A program made the position numbers and the translations under genes. Source: a virus. From it: a stretch of DNA of 22,244 nucleotides. How positions within the stretch are numbered: position 1 is the stretch's first letter; every line of letters starts with the position of its first letter. The notes under the pieces are model-generated. The model was not told the origin of the DNA. It was given only the letters and a program-made list of their open reading frames with translations, and searched no databases. Positions 3,730 to 22,244 of this stretch are shown piece after piece. The DNA is taken from positions 1 through 22,244 of IMG/VR virus record IMGVR_UViG_3300034023_000149; one strand, 5' to 3'.

Positions 3730-4218
3730 CTAAGCCCCATGGTCGTCTGTAAAGCCTAATGCCTCGTATAGAGTATCTCGTATTTTTATCGCTAAATCCA
3801 AATCGTCGTAGCGCCCACCAAAAACAGACTTCTCTCCGCTACCTACGCGAACTCGCCATTTTCCAGCATTGCGGTCAATCCCATTATGCCCACTGGTATT
3901 ATTTTTAGCCTTAGTTTTATTACGAGCATTTAAGTTCGGCGTGGCTAGTCGCAGGTTTTCTATTCTATTGTCCGTCGTATCTCGGTTTATGTGGTCTATA
4001 TCGCCAGTTGGCCAAGCACCCATTACGACAGCCCATACTACCCTGTGAACTGCGTATCGCTTGCCATTATGTTCAACTTCTCCGTAAGGGCGCGCTGCCC
4101 GCTTTTTAAGTTTATATCGAATGTAAACACATTGCCCCGTGCGTATGCGAATTAATTTGCCATGTTCGTAGTCGTACCGAAACACGGTTTGAAAATTTGG
4201 GGGTGCGGCTTTTTGCAT
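3730..4218 (-). CDS. HNH homing endonuclease with AP2-like DNA-binding domain
   Basis: 162 residues. The central part contains the HNH_3-type core: VHRVVW (His58), then GDIDHINRDTTDNRIENLRLAT (His76, Asn78, Asn88 region). The metal-binding and catalytic pattern is complete. The C-terminal part, NTSGHNGIDRNAGKWRVRV and the following FGG/LDLAI segment, resembles an AP2-type DNA-binding domain, which gives target specificity in many phage HNH enzymes. Such enzymes are free-standing mobile genes that cut phage genomes lacking them. This one sits immediately upstream of the terminase genes, a common location for such insertions. It is intact, so it is probably active. Some phages need an HNH protein near the terminase for packaging, so a structural-packaging role is an alternative, though the AP2 tail favours homing. 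Confidence 0.88.
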   Translation of the reverse strand: MQKAAPPNFQTVFRYDYEHGKLIRIRTGQCVYIRYKLKKRAARPYGEVEHNGKRYAVHRVVWAVVMGAWPTGDIDHINRDTTDNRIENLRLATPNLNARNKTKAKNNTSGHNGIDRNAGKWRVRVGSGEKSVFGGRYDDLDLAIKIRDTLYEALGFTDDHGA

Positions 4219-7482: not shown

Positions 7483-7929
7483 ATGGCTACCACTACGCTC
7501 GCTACGCTTCCATCCTTCGCACAATGCGTTGGTGTTTGTCTGGTGGCCTTCAAAACCATAACGGGCATACCCGAACATAACCACGACGGCGATACGCTCA
7601 CGGTGAGAACCCAGAGCGGCGCGATAAACGTCCGCCTGCATGGCATAGATGCGCCTGAGTTATCAGAGCCTTACGGTGTGCAGAGCCAAGAATATCTCAG
7701 CACCATCACGAAGGGCCAAACGCTGCGCTGTGAACCATCCAGCCAGAACACAAGCTACACTAGAGTCGTCGCGCGGTGCTTCCTCGAAGATGGCAGGGAA
7801 ATCAATCAGTTAATGGTCGAAGCCGGGCTGGCTCTGGACTGCAAACGCTACAGCCATGGTTACTACGCCAAGTTTGAACAGTCATGGGCGCGCAAGCGCC
7901 TCACGCAGAAGGGGTATTGCCATGAGTGA
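7483..7929 (+). CDS. Staphylococcal-nuclease (thermonuclease) family protein
   Basis: 148 residues with a strong AGGAGG ribosome-binding site. The SNase fold is marked by DGDTLTV (Asp37, equal to Asp21 of the Staphylococcus enzyme) and VRLHGIDAPE (Arg51, Asp56, Glu59, equal to Arg35, Asp40, Glu43). Then TRVVARCF (Arg94, equal to Arg87) and GREINQLMVEAGLA follow. All catalytic and calcium-binding positions are present, so it should cut DNA or RNA. The first 30 residues are hydrophobic but lack an N-terminal positive charge, so a signal peptide is not certain. If it stays in the cytoplasm it may help degrade host DNA; if exported it may act in the envelope or outside. It overlaps the next gene by eight bases. 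Confidence 0.92.
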   Translation: MATTTLATLPSFAQCVGVCLVAFKTITGIPEHNHDGDTLTVRTQSGAINVRLHGIDAPELSEPYGVQSQEYLSTITKGQTLRCEPSSQNTSYTRVVARCFLEDGREINQLMVEAGLALDCKRYSHGYYAKFEQSWARKRLTQKGYCHE

Positions 7930-8536: not shown

Positions 8537-9529
8537 ATGCGACCGACTCAGTTAGAAGCTACTCTTACGGCTCTTATCTCTATCAATCGCACAACTACCA
8601 TCGAGGGTGCGCCCGGTGGTGGTAAGACAACCATTGTTCATGCCGTCGCCAATAAGATGGGTAAACACTATATCGAACGGCATCTTCCTACGATGCTGGT
8701 TGAGGACTTTGGCATACCCGTTATCGGCGGTGATACGCTGACCTATAAAATCCCTGACTGGTTTCCTGCCAAAGGTTCCTCATGGGACGATGGTAAGGGC
8801 GGTGTGCTGTGCTTCGACGATAGGAACCAAGCTAATGCAGATATTCAGAAGGTGCTGGCGAACATTTGTCAAGCTCGCAATCTTCATGGTGTTCCTCTTG
8901 CTGATAACTGGACTGTCGTTTCTACTGGCAATCGGCAGTCTGATCGTGCTGGCGCAAACCGCGTTCTTAGCCATCTGCGTAACCGTGAAACGGTTCTTGA
9001 GTTGGACACTCACTTGGATGACTCAACCCAATGGATGATCGACAACGACATTAAACCGGAGGTTATCTCGTTCCTTCGCTTTCGTCCCAACCTATTGCAC
9101 GACTTCGATCCGCAGCGTGATAGCAACCCTACGCCCCGTAGCTGGGTCGAAGGTGTAAGCGCAGTGCTTGGCGTTGTGCCAGCCGAGTCCGAATATGAGT
9201 GCTTCAAGGGCGCAGTGGGTGAAGGCGCTGCGGCTGAGTTTGTTGGCTTCATGCGTATCTTCCGCAAGCTGCCCAATCCTGACGCCATCTTGCTCAACCC
9301 GGATAAATCCGATGTGCCTTCCGATCCGGCGACTCTCTATGCCTTATCGGGCGCTCTGGCTGAACGCGCCAGCGATGCGAACTTCTCCCGTGTCTGCACG
9401 TATTGTGAGCGTATGCCGCCTGAGTTTTCTGTGCTGACCATTAGCTATGCCGCCCGTAAGAACCCATCACTGGCTTCGACCCAAGCGTTTACGACATGGG
9501 CTGTGAAGCATCAGGACGTTTTGTTCTAG
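8537..9529 (+). CDS. MoxR-like AAA+ ATPase (CobS-like)
   Basis: 330 residues starting at an ATG with AAGAGG eight bases upstream. Walker A is GAPGGGKTT (residues 24-32). The Walker B equivalent is VLCFDD (Asp94, Asp95), in which the usual catalytic Glu is Asp. Sensor 1 is VVSTGN (Asn132), followed by arginines at 134, 137, 142 and 148-150 for sensing and trans action. LHGVPLADN before sensor 1 is the MoxR-type insert pattern. MoxR ATPases act with VWA-domain partners to remodel proteins or insert metals (RavA-ViaA, CobS-CobT, Mg-chelatase). Here the matching VWA protein is encoded two genes on, with a DUF3150-like gene between. Phage versions are often labelled CobS, but no cobalamin gene lies nearby, so a cobalt-chelatase role is unlikely. 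Confidence 0.9.
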   Translation: MRPTQLEATLTALISINRTTTIEGAPGGGKTTIVHAVANKMGKHYIERHLPTMLVEDFGIPVIGGDTLTYKIPDWFPAKGSSWDDGKGGVLCFDDRNQANADIQKVLANICQARNLHGVPLADNWTVVSTGNRQSDRAGANRVLSHLRNRETVLELDTHLDDSTQWMIDNDIKPEVISFLRFRPNLLHDFDPQRDSNPTPRSWVEGVSAVLGVVPAESEYECFKGAVGEGAAAEFVGFMRIFRKLPNPDAILLNPDKSDVPSDPATLYALSGALAERASDANFSRVCTYCERMPPEFSVLTISYAARKNPSLASTQAFTTWAVKHQDVLF

Positions 9530-10648: not shown

Positions 10649-11752
10649 ATGGACTTACTCAAGCGGTTATCGAAAGCCAAGACTGGCCTAATCCTAGAGC
10701 ATCCCTTCATCGGATCGGTTGCCATTAACATGCCGTTCGAACTGGACGAAACCATTGCGACTGCTGGCACCAATGGCAAGCGTGTTAGATTTAACCCTGC
10801 GTTTATTGAGAAGCTGACTGATGAGGAACTTAAATTCCTTGTCGCTCACGAGTGTCTCCATCCCATGCTCGAACATAACTATCGCCGCAATGGACGGACT
10901 GCCAAGCGTTGGAATCAGGCGGCTGACTATGTGATTAACCAGCTTCTTGTCGATGAAAAGATTGGCAAGTTTATCGACGGCGGCTGTCTCAATCAGGCTA
11001 CCTATAACGCTGGCGGTGGCACCAGTGACGGTATCTATAACATACTGCCGGAAGATAACGGCGAAGGTGGAGGTGACATCGGTGGCGCTGGCAATGATCT
11101 GGAAGATGGTGAAGGTTCACCTGCCGAACAGGAACAACAAGCCGCAGAATGGCGTGTCAAAGTTGCCCAAGCCGCGCAAGCCGCGAAGATGATGGGTAAA
11201 CTGTCGGCTAACATGCAGCGTTTTGTTGACGAAGTATTGCAGCCCAAGGTTGCATGGCAGGATGTGTTGCGTCGGTTTGTGCAGAAAGCCAAGACGGATC
11301 AGCGCACGTTCGCCCGCCCCAACCGTAGGTTCTTGGCGCAGGGTTTGTATATGCCGTCCATCACTGGCGAGGTTCTTGGTGAGATTGCCATTGCCGTTGA
11401 TTGCTCTGGCTCTATCGGTCAGCGTGAACTCAATGAGTTTGCTACTGAAATCAAAGCCATGAAGGAGGATGGCAACCCGTCTGCGCTACATATCGTTTAC
11501 TTTGACAGTGAGGTTAGTCACTACGATCACTATGGTCGTGACGATGAGGTTGTTATTGAGCCGCACGGTGGTGGCGGCACAGCGTTCAGCCCCATCTTTC
11601 AGTATCTTGAGCAAAACAATATTAACCCTGTCGCTTGTGTCGTGCTTACCGATTTGTATTGCAATGACTTTGGCGACATGCCTGACTACCCTGTGCTGTG
11701 GGTTACGAACGGCACAGACAAAGCGCCTTGGGGTGAAGTGGTCAAGATGTAA
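10649..11752 (+). CDS. Metallopeptidase-like / VWA-domain protein (DUF2201-like, CobT-like)
   Basis: 367 residues. The N-terminal half has a zincin-type VAHECLHPMLEH motif (His67, Glu68, His71) with a following NQAADYVIN (Asp93), the pattern of the putative metallopeptidase domain in DUF2201-type proteins. A Gly/Glu/Asp-rich linker covers about residues 121-165. The C-terminal half is a von Willebrand factor A domain with a complete metal-ion-dependent adhesion site: AVDCSGS (Asp251, Ser253, Ser255), GGGGTAFSP (Thr311) and VVLTDLY (Asp335). It is the expected partner of the MoxR-like ATPase: the ATPase hexamer drives the VWA subunit, which positions a substrate. Whether the HExxH site cuts proteins is unknown. 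It has its own promoter P3 although it must work with the P2 products, so the two promoters are probably co-regulated. Confidence 0.9.
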   Translation: MDLLKRLSKAKTGLILEHPFIGSVAINMPFELDETIATAGTNGKRVRFNPAFIEKLTDEELKFLVAHECLHPMLEHNYRRNGRTAKRWNQAADYVINQLLVDEKIGKFIDGGCLNQATYNAGGGTSDGIYNILPEDNGEGGGDIGGAGNDLEDGEGSPAEQEQQAAEWRVKVAQAAQAAKMMGKLSANMQRFVDEVLQPKVAWQDVLRRFVQKAKTDQRTFARPNRRFLAQGLYMPSITGEVLGEIAIAVDCSGSIGQRELNEFATEIKAMKEDGNPSALHIVYFDSEVSHYDHYGRDDEVVIEPHGGGGTAFSPIFQYLEQNNINPVACVVLTDLYCNDFGDMPDYPVLWVTNGTDKAPWGEVVKM

Positions 11753-17917: not shown

Positions 17918-18351
17918 CCATGAGTTGGGAAGATTACTTTATGGACTTGGCTTGCAAAATATCTGAGCGATCCAAAGACCCAAGCACCAAGGTCGGTTGT
18001 GTTGTGGTGACTGAAGATAAGGTCATCGCTGCGACCGGCTATAATGGAATCCCTCGTGGCGTCGAAGATAAGCATGAACGTATGGAGAGGCCAGCTAAAT
18101 ATCTATGGACAGCCCATGCAGAGGAAAATGCTGTGGCTCACGCAGCGCGTGTGGGCGCACGATTAAAAGGTGGGTCGGCGTTCGTGACCCATGAGCCATG
18201 CAGTCGGTGTGCGAGGTCACTTATTCAAGCTGGCATTATCCAAGTTCATGTCGGCCCCGGCACTACCAAGATGCCAGAAGAAGAATTTGAAGTGTCTCGC
18301 ATTATGTTCGAGGAAGCTGGAGTGAAGGTGTACCGCGATGGTGTTATATAA
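17914..18351 (+). CDS. Deoxycytidylate (dCMP) deaminase
   Basis: 145 residues. The cytidine-deaminase fold is clear: SKDPSTKVGCVVV near residues 20-32, then TAHAEENA (His68, Glu70, the zinc ligand and proton shuttle) and HEPCSRC (Pro95, Cys96, Cys99, the other zinc ligands). ATGYNGIPRGVED is the substrate-loop pattern of dCMP/deoxycytidylate deaminases. It converts dCMP to dUMP for dTMP synthesis in the cytoplasm, matching a role in raising thymidylate for phage DNA. A second ATG two codons in is an alternative start. It overlaps the next gene by 14 bases. Confidence 0.93.
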   Translation: MTMSWEDYFMDLACKISERSKDPSTKVGCVVVTEDKVIAATGYNGIPRGVEDKHERMERPAKYLWTAHAEENAVAHAARVGARLKGGSAFVTHEPCSRCARSLIQAGIIQVHVGPGTTKMPEEEFEVSRIMFEEAGVKVYRDGVI

Positions 18352-18610
18352 ACTAGACAAACAAATCGTAAACGAACTACGCAAGGAAGCGGAGAGTTGT
18401 ATAGAACCAATCTTGCAGAAACATAATCTACGTTGGGAGCATGTGTTCGCGCACAATAAATCAGCCCTGTATATTGCCGCACGGCAAGAGATTTATGTGG
18501 CAATTCGCAACCGACTTAAATGGTCGTACCCGAAAATAGGTCGATTGTTTAACAGGGATCATGCGTCGGTCTTACATTCTGTGCGGCGGTATAAGAACTT
18601 AAAAAAGTAG
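18338..18610 (+). CDS. DnaA domain IV-like DNA-binding protein (90 aa)
   Basis: The ATG at 18338 lies within the deaminase end, with GAAGGTG upstream. The C-terminal 50 residues match the DnaA domain IV helix-turn-helix: ARQEIYVAIRNRLKWSYPKIGRLF, then NRDHASVLHSVRRY. The RDHASVLHSVR stretch corresponds to the DnaA signature RDHTTVLHA.R, which contacts the DnaA box. There is no AAA+ domain, so it cannot act as an ATP-driven initiator by itself. It may bind phage origin repeats, or compete with host DnaA for host boxes. It is grouped with polymerase and nucleases. Confidence 0.87.
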   Translation: MVLYKLDKQIVNELRKEAESCIEPILQKHNLRWEHVFAHNKSALYIAARQEIYVAIRNRLKWSYPKIGRLFNRDHASVLHSVRRYKNLKK

Positions 18611-18620
18611 AGATGCCACG

Positions 18621-19283
18621 ATGAACCTTAGCCACTCTTATTCATCACTGAAGCTATATGAGAACTGCCCATACCGGTACTACCACCAGCGTATAGCTAA
18701 GACGGTGGTGGATCAGGGTGGCGAGGCCAGCAAGCACGGAGAACGCATACATAAATATCTTGAAGATAGAGTGAACGATAAAGTTGAACTACCAGATGAA
18801 CTGAAACATGCCGAGCCAATCGTTGCGTCACTGGAGAAGCTGGCTAAAGGTGGAATCCTGCGCGCCGAAGCAGAGATGACGCTGACGATTGACCTAACGC
18901 CAACGACATGGTGGGCGAAGGACGCATGGATGCGGTCGAAGCTGGACATAATCGTATCTAAAGACACCACGGCTGTTGTCGCAGACTGGAAAACAGGAAA
19001 GCGCAGACCAGACTTCGCACAGTTGGAGTTGTTTGCGTTGCAAGTGTTCGCGCACTACCCGCACATCAACAAGGTCACATCCAGTTTCATCTGGATTAAA
19101 GACATCGCTATGGATCGCAGGACATACACACGTAAAGACCAGCATGAACTGTGGAACAAAGTGCTGACCAAAACGCAGCGCATTGAACACTCACTTGAGA
19201 ATGAGAACTGGCCCGCTAAACCAAGCGGTCTGTGTGGATACTGCCCATGTAAAAATTTTTGTGAGTTCGCTTACACTAGATAG
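18621..19283 (+). CDS. Cas4/RecB-like PD-(D/E)XK nuclease with Fe-S cluster motif
   Basis: 220 residues. It begins LSHSYSSLKLYENCPYRYYH, the usual opening of the PDDEXK_1/Cas4/AddB group with the first cluster cysteine (Cys16). KHGERIHKYLE (about 38-48) supplies the motif I helix. SKLDIIV (Asp109) and VVADWKTGK (Asp122, Lys124) form the nuclease core, followed by QLELFALQ. The C-terminus carries CGYCPCKNFC (Cys205, 208, 210, 214), which with Cys16 would bind a 4Fe-4S cluster. Such enzymes are 5'-3' or 3'-5' DNA exonucleases acting in recombination or end processing. No CRISPR array or other cas gene is present, so it is a stand-alone phage recombination nuclease. Confidence 0.9.
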   Translation: MNLSHSYSSLKLYENCPYRYYHQRIAKTVVDQGGEASKHGERIHKYLEDRVNDKVELPDELKHAEPIVASLEKLAKGGILRAEAEMTLTIDLTPTTWWAKDAWMRSKLDIIVSKDTTAVVADWKTGKRRPDFAQLELFALQVFAHYPHINKVTSSFIWIKDIAMDRRTYTRKDQHELWNKVLTKTQRIEHSLENENWPAKPSGLCGYCPCKNFCEFAYTR

Positions 19284-20008: not shown

Positions 20009-20314
20009 ATGGCTACACCCGAAGCGAAAATAAAGCTGAAGGTCGATAGGGCTTTGCAACAACTGAAGATTTGGTTCTTCAGTCCGCAAGCCGGTCCGTT
20101 TGGTAGGTCAGGTGTTCCAGATAGGATCATCTGCGCGAACGGTCATATGGTTGGTATAGAATGTAAAGCGGATAGGTCTAAGAAACCTACCCGCTTGCAG
20201 GTAGATTGTATGCGTAAGATCGAAGCGGCGGGCGGCAAATGCTTCCTTGTCTACGATGATGCTACGCTTGAAGAAGCAATAGAATATATTAAAGAGGCGA
20301 TGAAATGCTTGTAG
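20009..20314 (+). CDS. VRR-NUC domain nuclease (101 aa)
   Basis: A minimal PD-(D/E)XK nuclease of the VRR-NUC family, the stand-alone form common in phages and related to the FAN1 nuclease domain. The core is visible: Glu5 in the first helix, SGVPDRI (Asp38), GIECKAD (Glu51, Lys53) and RLQVDCMRKIEAAGG (Gln64). Family members act as structure-specific nucleases on branched DNA, often as homodimers. It overlaps the helicase gene by ten bases, which fits a nuclease-helicase pair acting on replication or recombination intermediates, as seen in many phages. Confidence 0.92.
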   Translation: MATPEAKIKLKVDRALQQLKIWFFSPQAGPFGRSGVPDRIICANGHMVGIECKADRSKKPTRLQVDCMRKIEAAGGKCFLVYDDATLEEAIEYIKEAMKCL

Positions 20315-22244
20315 TCGAAAGAGCCAAGGCGCTTGCGCTAAAGCTGGACTACCCAGCGCGTGTGCTGGAGACGATACCTACTGCAAAGGCGCTGCGCCCC
20401 AACATCGTTGTGGCTCCGCACCGGCTGGATGAAGTGCGTGTGCTGCGTAACATGGGCATCGACGCCCCATCGCCTATACTGCACTACTACGACTGGCCCG
20501 GTAGGTTTAAGCCGTACGAACACCAGCGGGAGACTGCTGCGTTCCTTACGATTAACCAACGTGCGTTGGTGCTTAACGAGATTGGCTGCGTAGACGCTGA
20601 TACGGAGTATCTTTCTCCTAACGGATGGCGGCGTATCGCTGACTATAACGGCGGCGCAGTAGCTCAGTACTGGCCTACCACTGGTAAGATAGACTTCGTT
20701 AGTGAACCGGAGTTTGTTAAGAAGCCATGCGATGAGATGATCCGCTTCAAGACAAGCAGAGGCATTGACCAGCTACTTAGTCCTGAGCATCGTGTCCTTT
20801 ATGTTTCTAGCACTGGTCGTCGTATGGTGCGTCAGGCTCATGAGGTAATGGCTGCCCATGATAAGGCTACCCGTGGGTGGAAGGGACGTATAATCACTAC
20901 GTTCGATACCGACGGCGGCGGTGGCATACCACTGTCTGATGAGGAACTGCGTCTACAGGTCGCCGTGCTTGCAGATGGACACTTCTCAGCTAATTCCTCT
21001 ACGAACCGGTGTACAATCCGCGTTAAGAAAGAGCGTAAGAAGCTACGTCTACGTGAACTACTGAAGGCTGCGAATGTTCAGTGGGTTGAGCGTGACCCTG
21101 AGTATGACTCTGCGCTTGGCTTCACAATCTTTAAGTTCAACGCACCGAAGCGCATCAAGACCTATGCCGATTGGGCGATGGCTGCAACGCGCCACCAGTT
21201 GCGTGTCATCGTTGATGAAGTGTCGCATTGGGATGGAACGACGCGCAAGCGCGGGGGCGTAGAATTTTTCTCCAGAGATAAAGAGTCTGCTGACTTTATT
21301 CAGTACGCCTTCTCTGCCACCGGGCATACAGCCTCGCTTTCTACGTATGAGAGAGACAATGGAACAGACTACGTGGTTTATGCACGTAATAAAGCAGCGT
21401 TGCTATACGTAACCGGCTGGTCTGCGGAGGGTAAATCGAATACGATTTATGCAGAACCATCTACTGATGGGTATAAGTATTGCTTTATGGTGCCAAGCAC
21501 CTTCCTTATCCTGCGCCGTAATGGGTGCGTGTTTGCCACAGGCAATACAGGCAAGACCCAGAGTGCGCTATGGGCTGCCGACTATCTGCTTAAGACCAAG
21601 CAGGTTAAGAAGATTCTGATTATCTCTCCGCTCTCTACACTAGAGCGCGTGTGGGGTGACGCTATCTTCTTCGGCTTCCCGCATCGTAAAGCTGTTGTGC
21701 TGCATGGCACAGCCGACCGTAGACGCAAGCTACTCAAGACTGACTGTAATTTCTATATCATTAACCATGATGGCTTTCCGATCATATCGGAAATCACGGA
21801 CGGCATGTTCGATCTTATCATCGTGGACGAAGCTGCGGTGTTACGTAACCATAGCACGATGCGTTACCGCGTAATGCGTAAGTACATGGACCGCAATCCA
21901 GACACGCGTTTGTGGTTGATGACCGGCACACCGACGCCTAACGATCCGACTGACGCATGGACATTATCCAGACTAGTTAATAGCCCGTTCGTACCATCCA
22001 GCTTCACTGCGTTCAGAGACCAAGTGATGATGAAAGTTGGTATGTATAAATGGGCGCCGCGTCCAAACAGTATGGACCTTGTAAAGAACGTATTGCAGCC
22101 AGCGGTGCGCTATACCAGAGACGAGTGCTTCGATCTGCCAGACACCGTAATACAGACGCGTAAGGTTGAGTTGACAGCGGAGCAGAAGAAACATTATCAG
22201 TCGATGATTCGCCATCTGGTTACGGACGCTGGCACTGAGGCTGG
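20305..22244 (+). CDS. SNF2/DEAD-type helicase interrupted by an intein (partial, 3' end outside window)
   Basis: The ATG at 20305 lies inside the nuclease gene end. The frame stays open to the window edge, so the C-terminal RecA domain is missing. Extein motifs in order: FKPYEHQRETAAFL (Q-motif like), LVLNEIG/TGKTQSAL (Walker A, split by the intein after Gly94), IISPLSTLERVW (motif Ia), LIIVDEAAVLRN (motif II, DEAA) and LMTGTPTPN (motif III). This is the SNF2-like helicase found beside VRR-NUC genes in many phages. It would act as an ATP-driven translocase in replication or recombination. ATPase activity requires intein removal, because the intein separates the glycine from GKT of the P-loop. 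The next extein residue is Thr. Confidence 0.93.
   Translation, partial: MLVVERAKALALKLDYPARVLETIPTAKALRPNIVVAPHRLDEVRVLRNMGIDAPSPILHYYDWPGRFKPYEHQRETAAFLTINQRALVLNEIGCVDADTEYLSPNGWRRIADYNGGAVAQYWPTTGKIDFVSEPEFVKKPCDEMIRFKTSRGIDQLLSPEHRVLYVSSTGRRMVRQAHEVMAAHDKATRGWKGRIITTFDTDGGGGIPLSDEELRLQVAVLADGHFSANSSTNRCTIRVKKERKKLRLRELLKAANVQWVERDPEYDSALGFTIFKFNAPKRIKTYADWAMAATRHQLRVIVDEVSHWDGTTRKRGGVEFFSRDKESADFIQYAFSATGHTASLSTYERDNGTDYVVYARNKAALLYVTGWSAEGKSNTIYAEPSTDGYKYCFMVPSTFLILRRNGCVFATGNTGKTQSALWAADYLLKTKQVKKILIISPLSTLERVWGDAIFFGFPHRKAVVLHGTADRRRKLLKTDCNFYIINHDGFPIISEITDGMFDLIIVDEAAVLRNHSTMRYRVMRKYMDRNPDTRLWLMTGTPTPNDPTDAWTLSRLVNSPFVPSSFTAFRDQVMMKVGMYKWAPRPNSMDLVKNVLQPAVRYTRDECFDLPDTVIQTRKVELTAEQKKHYQSMIRHLVTDAGTEA
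20587..21546 (+). mobile_element. Intein with LAGLIDADG-type homing endonuclease, inserted in the helicase Walker A motif
   Basis: 320 codons in frame with the helicase. It starts with Cys in CVDADTEYLSPNGWRRI (splicing block A) and has LLSPEHRVLY, the His-containing block B, near residue 68. The centre has DEELRLQVAVLADGHF, a LAGLIDADG (dodecapeptide) motif with its Asp, and a weaker second copy around DFIQYAFSATGH, so the homing endonuclease appears intact. The C-terminal blocks read YKYCFMVPSTFLILRRNGCVFATGN, ending in the required Asn and followed by a Thr (+1) of the host protein. The usual penultimate His is Gly. Removal restores LNEIGTGKTQS, a normal P-loop, which confirms both borders. 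Confidence 0.94.

Follow-up and report, generated by a model that had tools for sequence, protein, structure and literature searches.

Inteins have been described in the P-loops of ATPases, in phages and with noncanonical penultimate residues, and common ancestry across phage and bacterial hosts has been described for class 3 inteins, DnaB-b and TerL1-c/-e (PMC5050341, PMC5874633). One of the mycobacteriophage elements, the metallophosphoesterase/RDF intein, is distantly homologous to the element considered here, a comparison made on its Turj99 allele, where the penultimate residue, 316 of 317, is Gly. Splicing of the mycobacteriophage metallophosphoesterase/RDF intein goes to completion with Gly and without detectable delay, replacement of Gly by His slows it, and toxicity of its endonuclease has been shown (PMC5050341).

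The sequence analysed here, referred to as the window, is the IMG/VR virus record IMGVR_UViG_3300034023_000149, with a length of 22,244 bases. Its last gene starts with an ATG at 20305, runs past the end of the window, and is present in complete form on the near-identical contigs L002 and L003. A sequence-only reading of the window had proposed that this gene encodes an SNF2-type helicase whose P-loop is split by an intein, and the extein indeed matches Pfam SNF2-rel_dom (PF00176, E=1.8e-16), as well as the DNA helicase family phrog_62 of PHROGs (E=2.3e-44). The interruption follows Gly94 and comprises residues 95-414 of the open reading frame, 960 nt that are in frame and free of stop codons; removal of these residues rejoins NEIG and TGKT. 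The boundaries originally given for the insert proved exact (Table 1).

Table 1. Parts of the interrupted helicase gene, in window positions; the inner boundary between the HINT and endonuclease regions is approximate and was taken from predicted secondary structure
Feature	Position	Strand	Basis
N-extein of the SNF2-type helicase, 94 aa, ending ...LVLNEIG	20305..20586	+	alignment to the intein-free L010
Intein, 320 aa, C1...ATGN320, +1 Thr	20587..21546	+	
N-terminal HINT splicing half	20587..20925	+	conservation among 55 relatives; 6zgq profile match
Predicted LAGLIDADG-type endonuclease domain, boundaries approximate	20926..21444	+	invariant residues; LAGLIDADG_3; Foldseek
C-terminal splicing half, blocks F and G	21460..21546	+	invariant residues in 55 relatives
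C-extein of the helicase, beginning TGKT, cut by the contig end	21547..22242	+	SNF2-rel_dom; complete in L002 and L003

Several other genes of the window encode nucleases or DNA-associated proteins. The stop codon of the gene at 20009-20314 overlaps the helicase start; its 101-residue product resembles a VRR-NUC-type nuclease by eye (PDRIICANG...GIECKA), and Pfam gave no match. Further upstream lie a PD-(D/E)XK nuclease (18621-19283; PF12705, E=4e-20) that also matches PADLOC Cas4 models (best E=2e-10), a 90-residue stand-alone DnaA C-terminal DNA-binding domain (18338-18610; PF08299, E=1e-9) whose gene overlaps that of a dCMP deaminase, and a Staphylococcal-nuclease homologue (7483-7929; PF00565, E=1e-11). 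A MoxR-like AAA ATPase (8537-9529; phrog_1297) is followed, one gene further on, by a DUF2201 metallopeptidase/VWA-like protein (10649-11752; PF13203, PF09967), for which the PHROGs label "HNH endonuclease" looks like a misannotation. An HNH_3 endonuclease of the free-standing homing type is encoded on the minus strand at 3730-4218 (PF13392, E=8e-16), adjoining the terminase gene, and is possibly a second mobile endonuclease of the phage.

Evidence that the 320 residues are an insertion came from an alignment with intein-free helicases, a comparison the sequence-only reading had proposed. In the nearest intein-free helicases, which are ~92% identical in the extein, the motif LVLNEIGTGKT is gapless, placing the insert in the P-loop as claimed; intein-free orthologues show NEIGTGKT or NEQGTGKT. 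A comparison of 239 related loci, in which identical copies and host proteins of other kinds were counted too, found 151 without the insert and 88 with it. Since so many loci lack it, the insert is an insertion rather than an ordinary domain. A tree of 145 non-redundant helicases, of which 43 have the intein and 102 do not, requires at least seven changes of intein state and gives the window helicase an intein-free sister. The samples for both the comparison and the tree were chosen by similarity to a few seeds, and their proportions should not be read as population frequencies. In one helicase (L012, on the same contig as L118), a second, unrelated-looking insert of ~315 residues was seen in the C-extein after ...NKLLQIS. 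It begins CIAYNTPVLTNHGW and ends VHN before CG, a canonical HN ending, and is probably a second intein at another site of the same helicase.

The splicing blocks that the sequence-only reading had placed at both ends of the insert were found there, with their key residues invariant in 55 relatives. Block A reads C1-V-D-A-D-T-E-Y, block B is L64-S65-P-E-H68 within LLSPEHRVLYV, block F is DGYKYCFMVPS (Y298, C299) and block G is VFATGN (G319, N320). Between them lie endonuclease motif 1, VAVLADGHF (D130), a central K191 and motif 2, SHWDGT (D216). The residues C1, H68, D130, K151, K191, E211, D216, Y298, C299, G319 and N320 are identical in all 55 relatives, and T, S or C occupies +1 in all 58 family members compared. 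Inteins usually carry TxxH in block B and His as the penultimate residue. Nearly all members of this family have Ser in place of that Thr, with the His invariant, and every member has a penultimate Gly in place of His, so the splicing rate cannot be predicted. Class 3 inteins lack a nucleophile at residue 1 and carry a Trp-Cys-Thr triplet. Part of this triplet is present here, as block F Cys299 and Thr318, which is insufficient alone; since C1 is invariant and block B has no Trp, class 3 was rejected and the motifs assign the element to class 1.

Searches with single sequences gave weaker signals than searches with the family. The window protein alone scores below the Pfam cut-off for LAGLIDADG_3 (17.2 versus 22.5 bits), a model matched by 27 of the 55 relatives (best E=2.4e-6). 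A PDB search with the single intein sequence returned a chance match only, and a family profile was therefore needed. The profile of 55 family members matches the solved intein 6zgq (AceL NrdHF) at E=3.9e-6 over profile positions 14-96, the kind of match to known inteins that the sequence-only reading had suggested looking for. An AlphaFold model built on the family alignment has a mean pLDDT of 96.7, with the endonuclease region predicted as confidently as the rest. The solved structures that Foldseek ranks best against this model are the intein-endonucleases TliVMA, PI-PfuI and PI-SceI (E=1.8e-14), and I-DmoI matches the endonuclease part. The two acidic-ended motifs and the fold by which a LAGLIDADG enzyme is recognised are both found, with D130 and D216 invariant and the predicted structure resembling those of I-DmoI and PI-SceI, which bears out the endonuclease originally proposed, even though the window copy by itself stays below threshold. 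Together, the profile match and the predicted fold make the intein assignment secure.

The Walker A loop of this phage SNF2 helicase is therefore very probably the site of a selfish element, a homing intein of class 1. Cys1 of the translated precursor would attack the Gly94-Cys95 bond, the acyl group would move to the Thr that follows the intein, and cyclisation of Asn320 would release the intein, restoring NEIG-TGKT and the ATPase. Because the insert splits Walker A, it is a sound expectation that helicase activity requires splicing. During phage co-infection, the LAGLIDADG domain would cut intein-free copies of the same P-loop DNA, and repair would copy the intein into the cut allele. In this way the intein would persist selfishly within an essential motif, which is likely to tolerate only exact deletion.

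Evidence for mobility and selection came from other members of the family, as no close, non-identical copy of the window's own intein was found. For one pair of loci (L101 and L108), dS is 0.083 in the intein versus 0.452 in the adjoining helicase, corresponding to 20 and 99.5 synonymous changes (Fisher p about 2e-14). DNA identity, taken from L106, whose intein is the same as that of L101, peaks at 95-99% across the intein and falls outward on both sides, as expected from homing with co-conversion. In two close intein pairs, dN/dS is about 0.05 and 0.10, indicating purifying selection on the intein protein. Between the window and L009 the inteins share 61% identity and the exteins about 40-47%, whereas between the window and L005 the inteins share only 54% and the exteins 61-67%. 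A history with one entry of the intein into the window's helicase clade and later losses is not rejected by the AU test (p=0.35). Comparison of the window with the nearest intein-free relatives showed no sharp co-conversion tract, the flank closest to the site exceeding the rest in similarity slightly at most. Base composition was considered as a sign of recent arrival and is uninformative, since GC is 0.51 versus 0.53 and the codon usage of the insert falls inside the range of the window's own genes. The family is thus mobile and shows signs of selfish spread, with support for the window copy itself being indirect.

Related inteins occupy the same point, G|[T/S/C]GK, in a range of host proteins. 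Among 58 non-redundant members from viral contigs, Gly always precedes the insert, Thr, Ser or Cys follows it, and 56 have the K[T/S] that ends Walker A at +3/+4. Their hosts include several SNF2 subfamilies, UvsX/RecA, a DnaB-type primase-helicase and a terminase, and in isolated phages related inteins are found at this Walker A point in PhoH, PIF1/RecD and DnaB-like helicases. RtcB carries a related intein at VDIG|CGM, which is not a P-loop. The inteins of an SNF2 helicase (L170) and of a terminase (L171, so called from its similarity to L162; 28%, E=6e-45) are 55% identical, and their exteins have no detectable similarity; those of a UvsX (L146) and a primase-helicase (L165) are 46% identical. 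Such similar inteins in unlike host proteins make transfer between unrelated hosts within the family likely. The sample behind this is dominated by SNF2 hosts. A tentative extension, given slightly less than even credence, is that this is a single phage lineage whose endonuclease recognises Walker A-coding DNA (GGN|ACN GGN AAR) and which has passed laterally among unrelated ATPases, entering each at one and the same residue. Intein-plus and intein-free genes show a modest codon difference at the insertion point (GGC versus GGT), but the two samples also differ in composition and this difference was given no weight. If this proposal is true, the preference of inteins for P-loops would be a DNA-targeting property rather than a matter of regulation.

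Other explanations for the insert differ widely in how well they fit these data. An insert that is in frame and open could also be an ordinary domain of the helicase or an in-frame RNA intron, and for this reason sequence alone cannot show that the insert is removed. However, the insert is missing from most relatives, including close homologues in which the sequence-only reading had considered that the 320 residues might be an ordinary domain, and it has a predicted HINT-endonuclease fold with a full set of splicing blocks. A search for Rfam intron families at two thresholds found no match at either. An ordinary domain and a group I or II intron were both rejected on these grounds, and this explanation is extremely improbable. 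An intein that splices, is merely inherited and has a dead endonuclease would account for the weak Pfam LAGLIDADG match of the window copy. It is unlikely, given that the window copy retains D130, K191 and D216, which do not vary across the family, that the endonuclease region is predicted with undiminished confidence, and that recent transfer is seen in other family members.

The sequence-only reading went further, proposing that splicing acts as a switch that times phage replication. A regulatory intein of this kind, in which redox, temperature or metal conditions control splicing and thereby helicase activity, draws on the split Walker A motif, since unspliced helicase should be inactive, and on the conservation of Cys48 and Cys299 (53 and 55 of the 55 relatives, respectively). 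In addition, two reports describe stress- or zinc-responsive splicing in other helicase inteins (PMC6195587, PMC7360933). Of the two cysteines, Cys299 in block F is expected to be catalytic or structural, leaving Cys48 as the one feature worth considering for redox control. Most sampled relatives, the nearest included, do without the intein, which argues that no splicing control is needed; moreover, the distant homologue with a penultimate Gly splices without delay (PMC5050341), and the signs of selfish spread in the family also oppose a switch. Regulation is thus very unlikely: the intein, its boundaries, the P-loop site, the endonuclease and the SNF2 host proposed in the sequence-only reading all stand, and the switch is unsupported. 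The element supplies paired alleles of a single helicase, intein-plus and intein-minus. With a family at one Walker A point in several unrelated ATPases, these alleles make the origin of the P-loop preference testable, the candidate sources being the DNA target of the endonuclease, poor tolerance of imprecise loss, and regulation.

The window element is a further example of the known phage inteins in ATPase active sites. A literature search found no report of the SNF2 site, or of a single lineage that occupies one Walker A position across several unrelated ATPases; its coverage was incomplete and such absence is unproven. PHROGs already includes a PhoH-like family that spans the intein (phrog_32482), which the window intein matches over its full length, residues 1-320 (E=1.9e-48). 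The PhoH intein of Acinetobacter phage AM24 has the same Walker A insertion point, FAG|TSKT, but its host protein is unrelated and it is 37% identical to the window intein over the alignment. The mycobacteriophage A1 TOPRIM and metallophosphoesterase/RDF inteins (Bethlehem gp51; Turj99 homologues were compared) are homologous over most or all of their length and share with the window intein the ...TGN ending, the penultimate Gly and class 1 (PMC5050341). They are only 30% (TOPRIM) and 22% (RDF) identical to it, however, and both sit in active sites that are not P-loops. The classic P-loop inteins (mycobacteriophage TerL1-a; RecA, DnaB, PcrA and UvrD) likewise occupy Walker A of an ATPase of DNA metabolism (PMC5050341, PMC5874633), but TerL1-a lies between the Lys and Thr of GKT, whereas the window intein separates Gly from the residue preceding GKT. 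PI-SceI, PI-PfuI and TliVMA have the same two-domain HINT and LAGLIDADG fold as that predicted for the window intein, with 9-13% identity and a length of roughly 360-450 aa versus 320 aa.
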